17,922 nt of DNA from Thermogutta sp. (GTDB lineage Bacteria; Planctomycetota; Planctomycetia; Pirellulales; Thermoguttaceae), in the NCBI RefSeq assembly GCF_014359955.1, contig NZ_JACIYL010000011.1, forward strand, positions 1 to 17,922, read 5' to 3'. Every line of letters begins with the position of its first letter. Positions within the stretch are counted from its first letter, which is position 1. The position numbers and the translations under genes were made by a program. The notes below the pieces were generated by a model, which searched no databases, was not told the DNA's origin, and saw nothing but the letters and a program-made list of their open reading frames with translations. Shown here one piece after another: positions 5,777 through 17,922 of the stretch.

Positions 5777-6259
5777 ATGGCCACTGACGTCACGCAAATC
5801 GATGTCCTTGAGTGGGTTCTCCAGCACCTGCGGAGCGAGCTCGCGCTGAGCGAGAACACCTGCTTTCTCGCCGCCGATGACCTCGCCCCGATGGAGTTGC
5901 CACCAGCTCCCGTCTTCGTCACCGTGACACCCCTGGAAGGGCATTTCGAGGTTGAGGAACAGAGCGTAGAGAACACCATCGAGGAGTGGACCTTCCGCGT
6001 GAGACTGTACATGCGGATTGCACGCGACCGCAGCGGCAGCGACCACAATCGCCTTTTGCATCCGACCGATGGCGTTCTTGCGTGGAAGCGGCGGATTCTG
6101 CGGGCCCTCTGCGGCCAGCATCTTGTGCAGTGGAATGTGGGCAGGACAATCGCGGCCGTGTCCTGCACCCGGATGGTATGGCTTCAGGGCCAGCGCGGCG
6201 ACCTGCACTATGCCAGTCTGGCCATTGATTTTCTCATCCCCATATCCTGGAACCTGTGA
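5777..6259 (+). CDS. Small tail protein, unknown (possibly terminator/completion-like)
   Basis: A 160-residue protein. ATG 5777 lies 3 bases after the previous stop. Its end overlaps the GTG start of the next gene by four bases (GTGA). Features are an N-terminal helix (IDVLEWVLQHLRSEL), a central strand pair (FVTVTPLEGHFEVEE ... WTFRVRLYMRI), a Lys/Arg-rich helix (WKRRILRALCG) and a final strand set. Size and alternating beta-alpha pattern recall tail terminator or tail completion proteins, which cap the tail tube, although those genes usually precede the tape measure gene. Assignment beyond 'tail module protein' is weak. Confidence 0.5.
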   Translation: MATDVTQIDVLEWVLQHLRSELALSENTCFLAADDLAPMELPPAPVFVTVTPLEGHFEVEEQSVENTIEEWTFRVRLYMRIARDRSGSDHNRLLHPTDGVLAWKRRILRALCGQHLVQWNVGRTIAAVSCTRMVWLQGQRGDLHYASLAIDFLIPISWNL

Positions 6260-9200
6260 GCGATAAGATCATCTTCACCATTAACGATCTGGCGTGCATC
6301 CTCCGGCCCGCGGATCGGCGGGCCCAGGCCTGGTTCCGCCGTCACTGGCCACCGGGATACTGGCCCTATGTGGCTCCGCCCGCCAGTCCATTTTCCCCGA
6401 ACTATCTCTGGCTTTCCGAGATCGGAACGCGGCCGCTGGGCGGCTGGTCCACGTTTCGCTGGGCGGACAGACTGCCGCGACGATGGGAACTCAATACGTT
6501 GTGGATTCCCACGGGGGCCTCACGATTTACGATTGGGCTGTTTCTCATCGACGGCCAGTCGGCACGCGAGATCTACAAGCAAATCCAGGAATCTAGTGGC
6601 AACACCGGCGTTATTTTTTATTTCGAGCACGGAGAAGATGGATACGCTCAGGTCCTGTGGGTCCTCGATCTGGTGCCGGTCGTGGCCCACGAGACGCTCG
6701 ATAAAGCCCCACAAGAGGACGCCGGCGACGAACTCTACCTGCTTGTCCTCGTGGACGATCGCTACTTCTGGCAGTTTGTTTACATTCCACTCGATCGCCC
6801 CAGGCGGTGGGGCGAGATCATCGAGACACTCCAGGAGACACTCCAGGCGAAAGTCCGTTTCTGGACCCCCGAAGGGGACATCGTTGATTACGATGAGATC
6901 ACCGCGGCCGATCTCGATCGGTTTCCTGACCTGGAAGCCGACATCCATGCCACCAGCACCACCACCAGCCGCGTGTGCACCACTTCGACAAGCACGTCCT
7001 CCACCAGCAGCACCTCAACGAGTTCGACATCCAGCACAACGAGCACGAGCACCACAACCACGCTGCCGCCCATTCTTCCCGATCCGGAAGGCTGGACGAC
7101 TCCCGGCCAGCCGGCCACGGTGATTCTCGACGCCCTCGCCGCCGGACTGGGATATGTCGTCGGCTCTGTGTTCTGGTGGTCTGGCGGAATTCACTACATC
7201 GAGCTGACGAAGAAACGATTCTTCGCCGACAGTGAGCAGAAAAAAACACTCCATATCCTGGCTGGCCGCAGCGACGGAAAGGCCGACACGCACTATCAGC
7301 CACGCAATCTCCGCCTGAGCTGGCCGGTCTGCAGCCCTTCCGGACGCTACCTCAAGTTCCGGACCCTCGATGACACGCTCGATTCTGGGACTGGCCAGCG
7401 TTCCTACCAGACAACGGGCTGCAACCTGTCGGAGGACTGCGCGCGGGCGATCCTCAAGCGGATCCGCAAGATTCAGGAGATCACTTCGCCGAGCCTCAGC
7501 ACGCTCACTCTCCCTCTCAGCGACGCGCCCCAAATTCTGGCCGAGCCGTACGCCGACATCGACTGGCTGCAACTAGACGTGAACCGCGGCCGGATTCTTG
7601 TGGCCGCCCAACATGCGGCGGTGGAACCGGCCCTCTACAGTCTGACCTGCCGCGATTCGCAAGGGGGCACGACAAGCACCACAGCCGTTCCTGGCTGGGG
7701 ACAGAGCGGCTGCGAGCCGTGCACCTGCACCTGGGAGTGCGTCGATGGAGAGGCGCGGATCAAGGAAAGCACCTGCCCCGAAGGCTGCGAGTGTGCCCCG
7801 CAGCCGAAACGCTGCGAAGATGAGAATTGGGAGCTGGTAGTTCCTTGTGTCACGACGACGACACCTCCCTGCAGCGGCACCTGTCACTGGCAATGGGACG
7901 ATCAAAACAAGGCCTGGACGCTGGTTAACGGTCAATGTTCCGAAGGGTGTCTGTGTGCGTCACCGCAATTCTGCGGGGACGGGGATTGTGCCTACGCCTC
8001 GACGTTCTGCGTGAAGGCGGACAGTCAACCCCCCAATCCCATCTGTACGACAAGTTCACCGACAAGCAGCACGAGCACTTCCAGTCCGGGAAGCACGACT
8101 CCCTGCCCCTATCCGCCTGGCCATCCGTGCTGTCCCGAGACCTGGACGACAACCACCACGCCCCGGCCGGAGTGCTGTTGTCCCGATAGCGGGACTGTTT
8201 GTGGCGGATGCCAGTGGAAGGCGGTCATTGGTATCGGCGGAGGTCTGAGCTGGGTCATCGCGAATTCTGATTGCTGTCCCGACTGCGGATGTGCGTATCC
8301 GACACGGATGCCGCGCGACCAGTGCGACATCGAACACACTCCCTGCAGTCAGCGTCCGCCTGTGATCACCACCCCATGCCCGCCCTGCGCCGGCGGATGC
8401 GAATGGGTCTGGTCCATCACCTGGCAACGATGGGTAAAAACCCGCGAGTCCTGTACCCGTTCCGGTCCGTTCTGCCCCTGTCCAGATGGACAGGAGTGCC
8501 AGAAGTGCCTCTGTGATCCACCGTCGCAGTCGCCCGCGGATCCCTCCTGCCACAACCTCGCCTACACACCCTGTCACTGCGTCTGCGGCACGACCCCCTG
8601 GCCGTGGCCGTGCCCGCCACCGCCGACAACGCGGCCGCCGACCACAAGCACGACCCCGGGTTGTGGCAGTCGCTGCCTGATGCGGTGGGATGGATCGGGG
8701 TGGAATCCCGTCGGCCCTCCCTGCCCGGGGAATTGCCCCTGTGCGACACCGCCGGTTGCTGGCAGCCAGGTCGGAGAGTGCCGCGAATCGGTGTGTGTCC
8801 CGGGAACCACCAGTAGCACCTCCACCAGCTCCACCAGCTCGACGACCACCAGCACGACGACGACAAGCTCCACGACGACCACCACGGCCTGTCCGGGCTA
8901 TTGCCTCTACGGGGCCACCGATACAGGCGTCTACCTCATTTCCAATCAGTGCCAGTCGGGATGCCAGTGTGCTCCGGCCCCCTGCACCGAGGTCCTGCCC
9001 GGGCAAACGGTCGTGGTCGGCTGCCTGACAGCAGGCCAGGCCGCCACCACAACGACCTGCAGTTGCTATGGCTACTGCGAGTATCTGGATCCGTTCATCG
9101 TGGACCAGCGCTGCGCCCCGGGCTGCCGCTGCAAGCCCCTTCCCTGCGACGGTTCACAGACACGGGGCATCGTCGGCTGCGAACCGGTGACCGGCACAAC

Positions 9201-10116
9201 CACCACCTGTCCCTGCCCGGGCTGGTGTGCGTACGAGCTCCTCTATGAGTCTGATGGCAGGAAGACAATTCTCACTCACGGCGGGAACTGTCCGCCGGGA
9301 TGCGGCTGTCCCGTGGTGTGCCCGGATGAACTTGAATCTCCAGGGATGTTCTACAGGCGCTGCACGAGCGACCAAGAGCAACTGACGAAGACCTGCATCT
9401 GTACCGGGGCATGCGAATGGCGGGCCAGACGAAATAACGCCGATGGCAGCCTTTACTGGGAGCTCTGGGATAATCAATGCAGTGAGAATTGCCAGGGGTG
9501 CCCACCACCGGCACATCCGCCGCAAGTATCCGGGGAGGTTGAGTTCACGGCATGCCAATCGGCCACCACGACCCGGCAGCCGTGTGGCGGCTCCTGTGTC
9601 TGGGAATGGTCTTCCTGGTATCACATCTGGGCCCTCACAAAAGGCTGTCCGCAGGGGTGCTACTGCCGGCCGCCGGAAGGCCCCGGACCGGTCTGGGATC
9701 CCGTTTCCGGCTGGACCAATACCTACATCTCGCAGTGCGTGGACCAGCCCCCGCCTCCGCCGCCGACCAGCACGAGCTCCTCCACCACCTCCAGCTCGAG
9801 CACAACGACCAGCAGTACGACATCCAGCACAACGTCGTCCACCACCTCCAGCACGACTTCAACGACGACGTCATCGACGACCACCACGACGGGCCAGCCC
9901 ACAACCAGCTCGAGCACAACCTCGAGTTCCAGCACCAGCACAACGTCGACGCCGGGCTGCTCTTCCTGCCAGTGTCTCTGGCAGTTTGATGACGAGTATG
10001 GCTGGATACTCTATTACGACTGCACCTATGAAGGGTGCGGCTCGAATTGTTCCTGTGACCCGCCGCCACGGAGTGGGTATTACCAAGGAGAGCTTTATTA
10101 CGTGCAGTGTCATTGA
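6256..10116 (+). CDS. Giant Cys-rich, Ser/Thr-stalked tail fibre-like protein (1286 aa)
   Basis: The GTG start (MSDKIIFTIND) is coupled to the upstream stop. Residues 1-230 are a folded, Trp-rich domain, probably the virion anchor. A Ser/Thr stalk follows at about 233-269, then a second folded domain at about 275-480 (GLGYVVGSVFWWSGGIHYIEL...). From about residue 486 to the end I count 97 cysteines in eleven units. Each follows a pattern C-x-G-x-C-x-W/Y, a beta hairpin, C-x2-G-C-x-C-x-P, then a closing C about 15-30 residues later. Units begin near residues 486, 539, 649, 712, 803, 879, 936, 985, 1049, 1110 and 1235. Further stalks lie near 851-877 and 1171-1232, with shorter ones between other units. 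The pattern implies disulfide-rich modules spaced by flexible stalks, outside the cell. The last gene of the tail block is a usual place for a receptor-binding fibre. No signal peptide is visible, as expected for a virion protein. Family unrecognised; fibre role inferred. Confidence 0.65.
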   Translation: MSDKIIFTINDLACILRPADRRAQAWFRRHWPPGYWPYVAPPASPFSPNYLWLSEIGTRPLGGWSTFRWADRLPRRWELNTLWIPTGASRFTIGLFLIDGQSAREIYKQIQESSGNTGVIFYFEHGEDGYAQVLWVLDLVPVVAHETLDKAPQEDAGDELYLLVLVDDRYFWQFVYIPLDRPRRWGEIIETLQETLQAKVRFWTPEGDIVDYDEITAADLDRFPDLEADIHATSTTTSRVCTTSTSTSSTSSTSTSSTSSTTSTSTTTTLPPILPDPEGWTTPGQPATVILDALAAGLGYVVGSVFWWSGGIHYIELTKKRFFADSEQKKTLHILAGRSDGKADTHYQPRNLRLSWPVCSPSGRYLKFRTLDDTLDSGTGQRSYQTTGCNLSEDCARAILKRIRKIQEITSPSLSTLTLPLSDAPQILAEPYADIDWLQLDVNRGRILVAAQHAAVEPALYSLTCRDSQGGTTSTTAVPGWGQSGCEPCTCTWECVDGEARIKESTCPEGCECAPQPKRCEDENWELVVPCVTTTTPPCSGTCHWQWDDQNKAWTLVNGQCSEGCLCASPQFCGDGDCAYASTFCVKADSQPPNPICTTSSPTSSTSTSSPGSTTPCPYPPGHPCCPETWTTTTTPRPECCCPDSGTVCGGCQWKAVIGIGGGLSWVIANSDCCPDCGCAYPTRMPRDQCDIEHTPCSQRPPVITTPCPPCAGGCEWVWSITWQRWVKTRESCTRSGPFCPCPDGQECQKCLCDPPSQSPADPSCHNLAYTPCHCVCGTTPWPWPCPPPPTTRPPTTSTTPGCGSRCLMRWDGSGWNPVGPPCPGNCPCATPPVAGSQVGECRESVCVPGTTSSTSTSSTSSTTTSTTTTSSTTTTTACPGYCLYGATDTGVYLISNQCQSGCQCAPAPCTEVLPGQTVVVGCLTAGQAATTTTCSCYGYCEYLDPFIVDQRCAPGCRCKPLPCDGSQTRGIVGCEPVTGTTTTCPCPGWCAYELLYESDGRKTILTHGGNCPPGCGCPVVCPDELESPGMFYRRCTSDQEQLTKTCICTGACEWRARRNNADGSLYWELWDNQCSENCQGCPPPAHPPQVSGEVEFTACQSATTTRQPCGGSCVWEWSSWYHIWALTKGCPQGCYCRPPEGPGPVWDPVSGWTNTYISQCVDQPPPPPPTSTSSSTTSSSSTTTSSTTSSTTSSTTSSTTSTTTSSTTTTTGQPTTSSSTTSSSSTSTTSTPGCSSCQCLWQFDDEYGWILYYDCTYEGCGSNCSCDPPPRSGYYQGELYYVQCH
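6952..7062 (+). repeat. Ser/Thr stalk-coding low-complexity repeat 1
   Basis: About 37 codons made almost only of ACC, ACG, ACA, AGC and TCG/TCC triplets, encoding Thr and Ser between the N-terminal and second folded domains of the giant protein. Synonymous codons vary, so the peptide composition rather than the DNA repeat appears to be maintained. Confidence 0.8.
8806..8886 (+). repeat. Ser/Thr stalk-coding low-complexity repeat 2
   Basis: Twenty-seven consecutive Ser/Thr codons between the fifth and sixth Cys units of the giant protein, bracketed by a Val-Pro-Gly and an Ala-Cys boundary. Confidence 0.8.
9766..9951 (+). repeat. Ser/Thr stalk-coding low-complexity repeat 3 (longest)
   Basis: About 62 codons, nearly all Ser or Thr with one GQP break, preceded by a run of seven prolines and a glutamine-containing turn. 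It separates the last Cys unit from the rest of the protein. Tandem AGC-ACG-ACG type triplets make it prone to length change by slippage. Confidence 0.8.
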
Positions 10117-14576: not shown

Positions 14577-15062
14577 TTATTCGAAGCCTGGAAGCATGGT
14601 TGAAGGCGGTGGTTCGCGGGCCTGAATCCCTAGATCCAGAGCCAATGTGACGAGATCTTGGTCAAAGCTGATCAATTCGTCAGCTTTGTGGGCCAAAGCC
14701 GTTGCGATGATCAGACAATCCCGAAAGCGTTTTTCGCGGTTGGAATTGACAGGCTGTGTCGCACCGGGTTTCATTCTCTGTCGTTGCTTACTTACCACCT
14801 GCCGGAATTCGATTGCGGCCTCAAAATCAAAGGGAATTATGCAGAAGTTCTCTTGAAGACGTTTTCCCGTTTCTTCGAAAGAGCTGTCGCAACCGAAAAG
14901 AAACTCAGCGGCCACGATCGCCGGAATGCAGATGTGAACTTTATTCTTAGCACACTCGCTTAAGAAATGTTTCGCTCGTGCGGCTTTGTCGCAATTGGGG
15001 TCGTCGGGCCGAATCGCATACACAAGCACATTGGTGTCGATGAAAACCACACTTGACCCCAT
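14577..15062 (-). CDS. PIN-domain protein, VapC-like ribonuclease
   Basis: 161 residues. The four acidic residues of the PIN active site are present: D9 in FIDTNVLVYA, E53 in AAEFLFG, D115 in RDCLIIATA and D134 in SFDQDL. Such proteins are Mg-dependent single-strand RNases, most often toxins of VapBC systems. The length is slightly above the usual 130-145 because of an insertion near residues 92-110. No small AbrB- or RHH-type antitoxin precedes it. Its upstream partner, 15 bases away in the same operon, is instead the 246-residue unknown at 15078-15818. Either that protein supplies the antitoxin role or this is an orphan PIN gene. Confidence 0.75.
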   Translation of the reverse strand: MGSSVVFIDTNVLVYAIRPDDPNCDKAARAKHFLSECAKNKVHICIPAIVAAEFLFGCDSSFEETGKRLQENFCIIPFDFEAAIEFRQVVSKQRQRMKPGATQPVNSNREKRFRDCLIIATALAHKADELISFDQDLVTLALDLGIQAREPPPSTMLPGFE

Positions 15063-16215: not shown

Positions 16216-16299
16216 GTGGCAAGTTCACCAGACTAGCAATCTGGTTCTACCTCCAGACTGTGGATCTGGGTGTCGCGGGTTCGAATCCCGTCAGCCACC
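16216..16299 (+). other. tRNA-His(GTG)-like element with doubled anticodon arm; attachment-site-like
   Basis: The 3' half is a normal tRNA-His. It has the anticodon arm 16253-16269 with anticodon GTG at 16260-16262, a 5-base variable loop and a T arm 16275-16291 with TTCGAAT loop. The acceptor strand CAGCCAC ends in discriminator C, as histidine tRNAs require. The 5' half is not normal: GTGGC pairs with the acceptor end, but the D arm is replaced by a second anticodon-like arm at 16228-16244. At 84 bases it is about 7 longer than usual. It probably is not a working tRNA. A tRNA 3' half next to xis/int is typical of attP or a remnant att site. No CCA is encoded. Confidence 0.6.
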
Positions 16300-16357
16300 C
16301 TCGGCAGGTGCCCGATTCCGCGAGGGCCGGGGGGCTTCGGCGGTGCCGGTGAGCCCT
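16300..16357 (+). repeat. 58-base tail repeat, copy 1 (after tRNA-His-like 3' half)
   Basis: Begins exactly after the tRNA discriminator base with CTCGGCAGG and matches copy 2 at 52 of 58 positions. Its right part folds as GGGCT-T-CGGC-GGT-GCCG-GTG-AGCCC (16332-16356). No T-run follows, so it is not a standard terminator. Confidence 0.8.
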
Positions 16358-16422
16358 GACTTGTCTATTAAGCGAAACGGCCGTCAATAATAAATCCCCA
16401 CTTTATGGTTATGAGGTGTGTG

Positions 16423-16479
16423 CTGACTCGAAATCAGGTGCCCCGAAAGGGGTTGCGGGTTCGAGTCCCGTGCCCTCCG
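16423..16479 (+). other. tRNA-Ser(CGA) 3' half; attachment-site-like
   Basis: Anticodon arm CTGA-CTCGAAA-TCAG (anticodon CGA, 16429-16431), long variable arm CCCC-GAAA-GGGG, T arm with TTCGAGT loop, acceptor strand GCCCTCC and discriminator G at 16479 all match a serine tRNA. Upstream there is no matching GGAGGGC acceptor strand or D arm, so only the 3' half exists. This is what an attP core or leftover att site in a tRNA gene looks like. Confidence 0.6.
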
Positions 16480-16537
16480 CTCGGCAGGCGCCCGGTTCGG
16501 TGACGGCCGGGGGGCTTCGGCGGTGCCGGTCAGCCCT
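16480..16537 (+). repeat. 58-base tail repeat, copy 2 (after tRNA-Ser-like 3' half)
   Basis: Starts exactly 180 bases after copy 1 and directly after the tRNA-Ser discriminator base. The hairpin stems (GGGCT/AGCCC and CGGC/GCCG) are identical to copy 1; one of the six substitutions falls beside them in an unpaired position. Confidence 0.8.
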
Positions 16538-16556
16538 TCCACGCCTGCTTTCATTC

Positions 16557-16586
16557 TTGCACTAATGCTAAGTGTGCGCATATAAT
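16557..16586 (+). promoter_or_regulatory. Promoter of the excisionase-like gene
   Basis: TTGCAC (16557-16562), 18-base spacer, TATAAT (16581-16586): a near-consensus sigma70-type promoter. The predicted start of transcription, about 16593, coincides with the first ATG of the gene, so the mRNA may be leaderless. Confidence 0.6.
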
Positions 16587-16592
16587 GGAGGC

Positions 16593-16799
16593 ATGAGTTC
16601 CATGATTATCGAACCGCGGGAACGGCTGTTCAGCGTCGATAGTGCGGCAAAACGCCTTGCCGTATCGCGAGGCCGCGTGCACCAACTCGTGGCAAGCGGG
16701 CGTATTAAGGCAATCAAGATTGCAAAGGCCCTGCTCATCCCAGAGTCGGAACTTGCTAAATACGAACGCGATCGCAGACCGTACCGTAAGTCCCTATAA
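16593..16799 (+). CDS. xis: Excisionase-like small HTH protein
   Basis: 68 residues from ATG 16593, or 65 from ATG 16602. It contains the winged HTH typical of the excisionase/MerR-like DNA-binding family: LFSVDSAAKRLAVSRGRVHQLVASGRI, then the wing KAIKIAKALLIPESELAKY. Such proteins bind attachment DNA and direct excision, or act as small regulators. GGAGG lies 1 base before ATG 16593 and 10 before ATG 16602, but it sits between the -10 box and the predicted transcript start, so it may not be transcribed. The location between two att-like modules and the recombinase supports the excisionase role; the assignment is by family and context. Confidence 0.65.
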   Translation: MSSMIIEPRERLFSVDSAAKRLAVSRGRVHQLVASGRIKAIKIAKALLIPESELAKYERDRRPYRKSL

Positions 16800-16834: not shown

Positions 16835-16863
16835 TTGACAAAAGCTAGGCGCACGCTTAGAAT
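16835..16863 (+). promoter_or_regulatory. Strong promoter upstream of the integrase gene
   Basis: TTGACA (16835-16840), 17-base spacer, TAGAAT (16858-16863), one mismatch from the sigma70 consensus. Transcription would start near 16870, leaving a leader of roughly 235 bases. Right after the start is a 21-codon frame (16877-16942), which may be a leader peptide or chance. Confidence 0.65.
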
Positions 16864-17047
16864 CAGTCTTGGAAAAATGACCGGCACCTTCTGGGCCCGC
16901 TCTCGGGCGGCTTGGCGGGTGCTAAGAAAACCAGGCGGGTAGTTGCACCTGCACTCACACAATTCGGAGTGCTGTCATGCGCGGAAATTGTGCGCTCTTA
17001 GTGCGCGGAGTATGGCAGACTTCCAATAGGAGGTCAAGTCGTAGTCC

Positions 17048-17083
17048 GCGGCCTTCGGGGGGCAGGGTGGCCCGAGAGGCCGC
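17048..17083 (+). promoter_or_regulatory. Stem-loop in the integrase leader
   Basis: GCGGCCT pairs with AGGCCGC and, after a single bulged G, TCGGG pairs with CCCGA, leaving an 11-base G-rich loop. The 12-pair hairpin ends 9 bases before the integrase ribosome site GAGGAG (17093-17098), so it could influence int translation. No T-run follows. Confidence 0.45.
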
Positions 17084-17106
17084 TCTACACCCGAGGAGAA
17101 GGCAGC

Positions 17107-17922
17107 ATGAGAATCAGTCAGCTCGCAAAACAATACACTCTTGTCCGACCGCATCAATCGCCCAAGCACATCAAAGACGTGGAGCGGGTTGTGCGAAGAT
17201 TCGTCGAAGCGAATGGGGACATTTCATTGGTCGATCTTTGCGAAGAGCACATCGCGAGGTTTCTTTCGCACGTCGGTGCCGGCTGCGAATCTTGTCATTC
17301 CTTGAAGCACTATCTCACTGTGCTCAAAGCGGTCTTAAACGAAGCCTACCAACAACAACTGATTGTTCGGATTCCGCGGTTTCCAAAAATACGAGTGGAA
17401 AGGCGAATACCAGATGCCTGGACTTTGGAAGAGATCCAACAATTGTTTGCACACGTTGCCAACCTAGAAGGTTACGTGGGCCGGACTCCTGCCCGGCTCT
17501 GGTGGGAGTCGCTCCTGCTCGCGGCGTATTACACAGGGCTGAGGATCAGTGCACTTTTGAGTATCTCCTGGTTTCAGGTCGATTTAGAGCGGCGGTATCT
17601 TCGGGCGTTGAGCCGGAAGACGCAAAAAGAACAACTGTTTTCGATTCCCGAAGACCTGTCGATCCTCTTGCACCAACTCCGCCACCATCCGCAGCAAAAG
17701 GTCTGGGAACATCCCTATCACGAGAAATGGCCTTTTCGAGCTCTCCGGCGGATCGTGGACCGGGCCGGCATTCCGGCTCCCAAGAATCTGCACGGGCAAC
17801 TGTTTCAGAAGATGCGGCGCACCTGTATCACCTGGACCGCCGTGAACGATCTGAACATGGCCACCAGGGTGGCGGGCCATGCTTCGCCGGATACAACCAT
17901 CAAGCACTACGTGGATCCGCGG
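17107..17922 (+). CDS. int: Tyrosine recombinase/integrase (3' end outside window)
   Basis: 272 codons are visible and the frame is open at the right edge. ATG 17107 follows GAGGAG at 8 bases. Residues 1-95 form the SAM-like core-binding domain; the catalytic domain follows. Catalytic residues: R146 (TGLRISALL), K171 (SRKTQKE), R237 (KMRRTCIT), H258 (VAGHASPDTT) and the nucleophile Y268 (IKHYVD). The position normally holding the first His of the H-x-x-R motif is Q234, with a His at 229 instead. Since Y268 is near the edge, little more than the C-terminal tail is missing. It would carry out site-specific recombination at the tRNA-derived sites just upstream. It lies 307 bases after the excisionase-like gene, under its own promoter. 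Confidence 0.85.
   Translation, partial: MRISQLAKQYTLVRPHQSPKHIKDVERVVRRFVEANGDISLVDLCEEHIARFLSHVGAGCESCHSLKHYLTVLKAVLNEAYQQQLIVRIPRFPKIRVERRIPDAWTLEEIQQLFAHVANLEGYVGRTPARLWWESLLLAAYYTGLRISALLSISWFQVDLERRYLRALSRKTQKEQLFSIPEDLSILLHQLRHHPQQKVWEHPYHEKWPFRALRRIVDRAGIPAPKNLHGQLFQKMRRTCITWTAVNDLNMATRVAGHASPDTTIKHYVDPR

Follow-up and report, generated by a model that had tools for sequence, protein, structure and literature searches.

We found two tRNA 3' halves that look like attP cores, each followed by a copy of the same folded element, directly upstream of phage-type xis and int genes. The stretch of DNA analysed (the window) is contig C113, 17,922 bases long, of a draft genome in 1117 contigs (G000). 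Insertion into a tRNA gene puts the tRNA at risk and exposes xis and int to the tRNA promoter. Our best explanation, to which we assign a probability of roughly two in three, combines an attP that recombines at the anticodon loop, a tail that insulates xis, a probably working module 2 and a module 1 that is a second core.

The proposed mechanism is as follows. The tyrosine recombinase of a temperate phage would use the anticodon loop of a tRNA gene as its insertion site, and the phage would bring a replacement 3' half for the tRNA that this insertion splits. Behind the half would stand a conserved three-way junction that includes a GNRA hairpin and in most cases runs out into a T-rich stretch. 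This tail would, in the lysogen, terminate the transcript of the rebuilt tRNA and protect the xis promoter, which begins only a few bases downstream. Module 1 (tRNA-His) would be a second core of the same type with its own tail, either a second usable target or the leftover of an earlier attP.

Two tRNA 3' halves within phage sequence

The two tRNA 3' halves that the sequence-only reading had described, 180 bases apart, with a common 58-base tail and upstream of xis and int, were confirmed. The direct repeat measured 89 nt (16269-16357 and 16449-16537; 83% identity, spacing 180), and the 58-base tails (16300-16357 versus 16480-16537) differed at six positions, being identical at 52/58. The half in module 1 matched tRNA-His(GTG) of a same-genus genome (G001) exactly over 48 nt, from tRNA position 28 onward (E 1.3e-21). 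The half in module 2 matched the window genome's own tRNA-Ser(CGA) region exactly over 59 nt, from position 27 onward (E 1.7e-26). Both matches run from within the left arm of the anticodon stem to at most 2 bases from the tRNA 3' end, and the matched segment is what an element crossing over at the anticodon loop must bring to restore its target tRNA. The earlier suggestion that the halves serve as crossover sites agrees with this arrangement, since both show the layout of an attP core with the anticodon loop as the putative crossover (Table 1).

Table 1. Features of the putative integration region of the window
Feature	Position	Strand	Remark
Dyad ACCAGA-CTAGCAA-TCTGGT (19 bases), upstream of the His half	16227..16245	+	
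Module 1, attP-like core and tRNA-His(GTG) 3' half, 48 nt exact	16253..16300	+	sequence match
Module 1, predicted core site	16253-16269	+	7-base anticodon loop as overlap; crossover position predicted
Tail 1, three-way-junction element	16300..16365	+	outer stem kept via two G-U pairs
Segment between modules	16366..16421	+	searched part 16358-16425
Module 2, attP-like core and tRNA-Ser(CGA) 3' half	16422..16481	+	exact match 16423-16481
Module 2, predicted core site	16422-16438	+	
Tail 2, three-way-junction element	16480..16548	+	7 T in the following 10 bases
Promoter-like site before xis: TTGCAC, 18 bases, TATAAT	16557..16586	+	9/12 matches
xis, excisionase-like HTH gene	16593..16799	+	ORF also listed from GTG at 16572
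Promoter-like site before int: TTGACA, 17 bases, TAGAAT	16835..16863	+	11/12 matches
int, tyrosine recombinase	17107..17922	+	truncated by contig end

No complete tRNA was found in the window by ARAGORN, and the Rfam tRNA model detected the His half alone, below its threshold (23 bits versus 29). A whole tRNA would be present at attL, so the window has the layout of attP rather than attL. In the window genome tRNA-Ser(CGA) is intact and carries no tail; a complete tRNA-His was not found in the draft. When the segment between the modules was searched against its own genome and 118 others of the family, it matched itself only, and the left flank of module 1 matched only itself and a 29-base stretch in G052. 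Hence no single-module sister phage was found; as both stretches are single-copy in the window genome, no attR was seen there, and the genome searches showed neither an attR nor an attL of the window phage.

To the right of the modules we found, in order, the excisionase-like HTH gene, a leader of ~240 bases and the tyrosine recombinase. The int gene, which adjoins the modules, matched PF00589 (E 4.6e-11) and phrog_1 (E 5e-28). To the left lie a major-tail-protein match (E 5e-7), an HTH regulator, a PIN-domain gene and glycosyltransferase-like genes, one of which scores below the Pfam cut-off. With phage-type genes on the left and xis and int on the right, the modules sit within phage sequence, as expected of an attP. 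The PIN-domain gene (14577-15062, minus strand; E 7.6e-15) is possibly the toxin of a toxin-antitoxin pair. Further to the left, positions 6256-10116 hold a cysteine-rich ORF of 1286 aa with Ser/Thr-rich linkers and no Pfam match.

A second integrase, 65% identical to that of the window and with a RecT-type gene behind it, was found on contig C741 of the same genome. The last 40 bases of the window (17883-17922) recur exactly in this gene (L109), and the window contig was therefore probably broken at a common stretch. No match to the window integrase was obtained in INPHARED by tblastn, and a search of genome contigs with the integrase returned 49 stretches, none of them confirmed. Its IMG/VR relatives (L076, L077, L078) start at or inside int. 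The leader between the int promoter and int (about 16864-17106) is conserved in L061, L062, L109 and partly in L137, contains a covarying hairpin within GGCACC...GGGTGCC, and gave no Rfam match at E<=1.

According to a review (PMC8371274), the anticodon loop corresponds with its stem to the overlap and core sites that make up classical att sites, and IntSSV1 carries out strand exchange at this loop/stem; on that account single anticodon-loop cores are ordinary. The window resembles such systems, which judging by title include Acidithiobacillus ICEs. As far as the accessible excerpts describe them, the element carries the tRNA 3' part from the anticodon stem onward, the 7-base loop and palindromic stem serve as overlap and core sites, and xis and int are adjacent. 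It differs from the systems in those excerpts in that two cores from different tRNAs stand side by side, with the same folded element behind each.

The inner arms of the dyad upstream of the His half are identical to the tRNA-His anticodon arms. Dyads with a 7-base spacer starting CTA were seen near the tail in 4/15 loci scanned (the window, L061, L062 and L153), and in three of these four the inner arms equal the anticodon arms of the same phage's tRNA. In another congener, G002, the 3' half of tRNA-His is present twice, both times together with the hairpin that lies downstream of it there (L118 on C102 and L122 on C230), as if an unrelated element had integrated at the tRNA-His anticodon arm.

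A conserved three-way junction behind tRNA ends

We collected relatives of the tail with two covariance models, R1 (7 tails) and R2 (16 tails). R1 had matches in at least 6 of 119 genomes of the family and at least 7 of 396 of the order, and R2 in at least 3 of 397 genomes of the class; these three genome sets overlap. A pattern scan of viral sequences yielded L115, and two scans for the outer stem yielded 43 stretches each, L115 again among them, giving 85 new loci. Seven of the 85 scored 55.6-80.4 bits with R1, two of the seven being copies of one sequence. The resulting alignment holds 16 tails from 15 loci, the window contributing two.

Several candidates stayed outside these 16: L167, whose sequence equals L157; L202 (36.9 bits), L201 (28.1), L154 (24.6), L166 (22.2) and L182 (21.5); L160, L133, L114 and L087; and the tRNA-Val(CAC) scars of G000 and G001 described below. 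L111 (26.1 bits) was also not among the 16, and was included in the table of T-runs and promoters, which comprises 17 tails. L202 and L201 were picked via the outer stem and have no xis-like gene directly behind them; L154 is followed by an HTH, xis-like ORF and may count as a distant member of the tail family. One viral pattern returned a sole stretch, L060, which was judged not to be a tail, and another returned 0 stretches. A further scan gave 15 stretches, of which 3 were known members and 12 (L211-L222) were new and matched no model at E<=0.1.

The common fold of the tails is a three-way junction composed of an outer stem (GGCAGGTG/CACCTGCC in the consensus), a GNRA-capped stem and a third stem; their sequence is conserved too. 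In alignment A6, comprising the 16 tails and fitted to the structure, 94.5% of cells were paired, and 12/23 pairs showed double-sided change, with 26 compensatory cells. None of 500 shuffles reached these values, and slid structures paired at 38-55%. Alignment A4, built with MAFFT from 9 tails, 7 of which had served to draw the structure, gave 95.8% paired cells and double-sided change at 7 pairs (12 cells), with 0/500 shuffles reaching this. The GNRA tetraloop was present in 16/16 tails. An exact outer stem had been the selection criterion for six of the 16 members, and a pattern fixing the GNRA loop that for L115, so that outer stem or GNRA loop is not independent in those members; the other stems are.

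The outer stem of module 1 (GGCAGGT/ACTTGTC) contains two G-U pairs, which fits an RNA better than a DNA palindrome. With R1, tail 1 scored 60 bits versus 78 for tail 2. The fold energy of the 58-base tails alone was dropped as evidence, being no better than that of shuffles (z 0.23 and -0.69), and the minimum-energy folds of L042, L046 and L004 depart from the consensus. At gathering score, Rfam gave nothing in the window and eight relatives except three tRNA matches; at E<=1, the module region gave weak matches only, far below gathering scores. In L134, the 85 bases directly behind the tRNA-Gly half and before the tail are unrelated in sequence and are also predicted to fold as a three-way junction (z -4.75).

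Related genomes were searched for the tail and for what precedes it, as had been proposed from the sequence, and this revealed 11 tRNA species next to or near tails. For 14/16 tails, a tRNA 3' end is found upstream at a distance of no more than 115 bases. In eight of the 16 it is at most 1 base away (His, Ser, Lys, Val(TAC), Ile, Ile, Cys, Val(CAC)) and in six it is 13-115 bases away (Gly, Glu, Phe, Arg, Gly, Phe). No tRNA was found upstream of the tails of L157 and L125 (2/16).

Directly behind the tail, a xis-like gene was found at 13 loci: the window, L061, L062, L073/L113, L115, L125, L134, L137, L144 (cut by the end of the stretch), L153, L157, L164 and L111. An integrase follows xis at 10 of these 13, two of the ten being cut by a contig end. 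L063, L064 and L065 look like remnants. The order tRNA 3' half, tail, xis, int recurs in single-core viral contigs (L115 with Ile, L164 with Cys, L137 with Val), and L062 occupies tRNA-Phe as an integrated element whose int is followed by phage genes. Of the 15 loci, the window alone carries a second tRNA core.

The tail as a predicted insulating terminator

At least 5 T occur in the 10 bases following 14/17 tails; the module 1 tail, L065 and L115 have 3 T in these 10 bases. In L111, seven consecutive T precede the xis promoter. For the 13 tails that have xis behind them, the top promoter-like site scored 9-11/12 and started 2-9 bases after the stem, compared with 6-8/12 for the other 4 tails. 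A stricter promoter and terminator scan of the window reported neither tail as a terminator and did not report the xis promoter, the latter because its -35 element matches at only 3/6 positions.

Since the promoter-like site sits behind the tail, we rejected the tail as a leader of the xis message. The tail precedes that message and would be the trailer of an upstream transcript, which would be that of the rebuilt tRNA in the lysogen or of another gene in L111. We read the tail as a predicted insulating terminator between the rebuilt tRNA and xis-int.

The tail resembles intrinsic (Rho-independent) terminators in part, a T-rich stretch following the GC-rich stem in 14/17 tails. In place of their one hairpin it has a three-way junction whose sequence and GNRA hairpin are conserved; some tails lack a T-run, and a simple terminator scan misses the tails of the window. 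The int-alpA RNA is a structured RNA beside integrase and excisionase-like genes. The tail is likewise structured and near such genes; unlike int-alpA, it is placed between a tRNA end and xis. At gathering score, neither the window nor any of eight relatives matched int-alpA, nor did the module region and leader do so at E<=1. Neither a double tRNA attP nor a tail of this kind was found among the literature matches listed, a body of text with most subscription journals outside it.

Alternative explanations for the tail and for the second module

To an ordinary host repeat linked to tRNA genes we give hardly any credence. The sequence-only reading had proposed looking for the tail behind many host tRNA genes without a recombinase, and this came out negative: it was seen behind one of the 27 tRNA genes read in the window genome, and there in part. 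That gene, tRNA-Val(CAC), which is the footing of the host-repeat explanation, has the tail's first 32 bases behind it in G000, followed by TTTCTTTTTT, and it precedes the same 32 bases in G001. However, 25 of the 27 genes have other sequence downstream (tRNA-Tyr, 6 bases from a contig end, could not be judged), and a xis-like gene stands immediately behind the tail at the 13 loci listed above. The tail query hit three places in the window genome, namely the two modules and tRNA-Val(CAC); 24 genomes matched it, most via the tRNA part alone. The tail belongs to the phage side and is not a host repeat. The Val(CAC) arrangement (L004, 4283-4314, on G000:C269, and L036 in G001), with a T-run after it and no recombinase seen nearby, is likely a scar common to two species; it looks like an old one that may now act as a terminator. 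An integrase arm-binding region common to both cores, as the earlier reading had it, was not supported and appears unlikely. In known phages arm sites lie beside the core and upstream of int; the tail occupies this position and is kept in sequence as well as in fold. Yet the fold is kept beside integrases only 24% and 34% identical to that of the window, and a Pfam scan of four integrases showed no arm-binding domain, both of which argue against a common arm region, and the compensatory changes and G-U pairs suggest an RNA. On these grounds the tail is probably not an arm region; a conserved structured terminator belonging to a phage family accounts for it better.

Module 2 (tRNA-Ser), next to the promoter and xis, has the layout of the single-core relatives and is probably a working attP. 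Module 1 may be a remnant, and we put this at somewhat under an even chance: an ancestor would have used tRNA-His, and the Ser core with the xis-adjacent tail would have come later by recombination with a related phage. Tail 1 has no T-run, which leaves the earlier suggestion of successive integrations standing, and has a weaker outer stem and the lower R1 score; moreover, no other locus was seen with two tRNA cores, hence one suffices. Against a remnant, the His half is exact over 48 bases although tRNA-His varies among other congeners, and the outer-stem changes of tail 1 preserve RNA pairing. The exact half speaks for use or a recent origin of module 1. More tentatively, one small integrase may have two attP cores for different tRNAs, each with a prefabricated RNA terminator, in a dual-target region; if true, either tRNA gene would be rebuilt with a working end and xis-int would be insulated. 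Integration at tRNA-His is predicted to give the order tRNA-His, tail 1, Ser half, tail 2, xis, and integration at tRNA-Ser the order tRNA-Ser, tail 2, xis; on paper, both are viable. The His and Ser anticodon arms have 8/10 positions in common, a likeness that 38/465 tRNA pairs equal or exceed, and this weakly suggests that a single enzyme could read both cores. An assembly chimera of two related phages, which the fragmented draft and the C741 integrase with its 40 shared bases could suggest, we consider very improbable. No exact run common to the tails exceeds 26 bases, the longest being flanked on either side by differences private to each tail, and a false join at such a run would yield one hybrid module rather than two complete ones.

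Implications

Single cores are ordinary and the double core is rare. A phage with two cores would capture an integrase with a widened or changing target, something otherwise inferred from trees. A conserved folded element placed right at the junction of tRNA and xis, and retained across many tRNA targets and alongside integrases that have diverged, would be a general answer to the risks of insertion into a tRNA gene as well as a candidate new RNA family.
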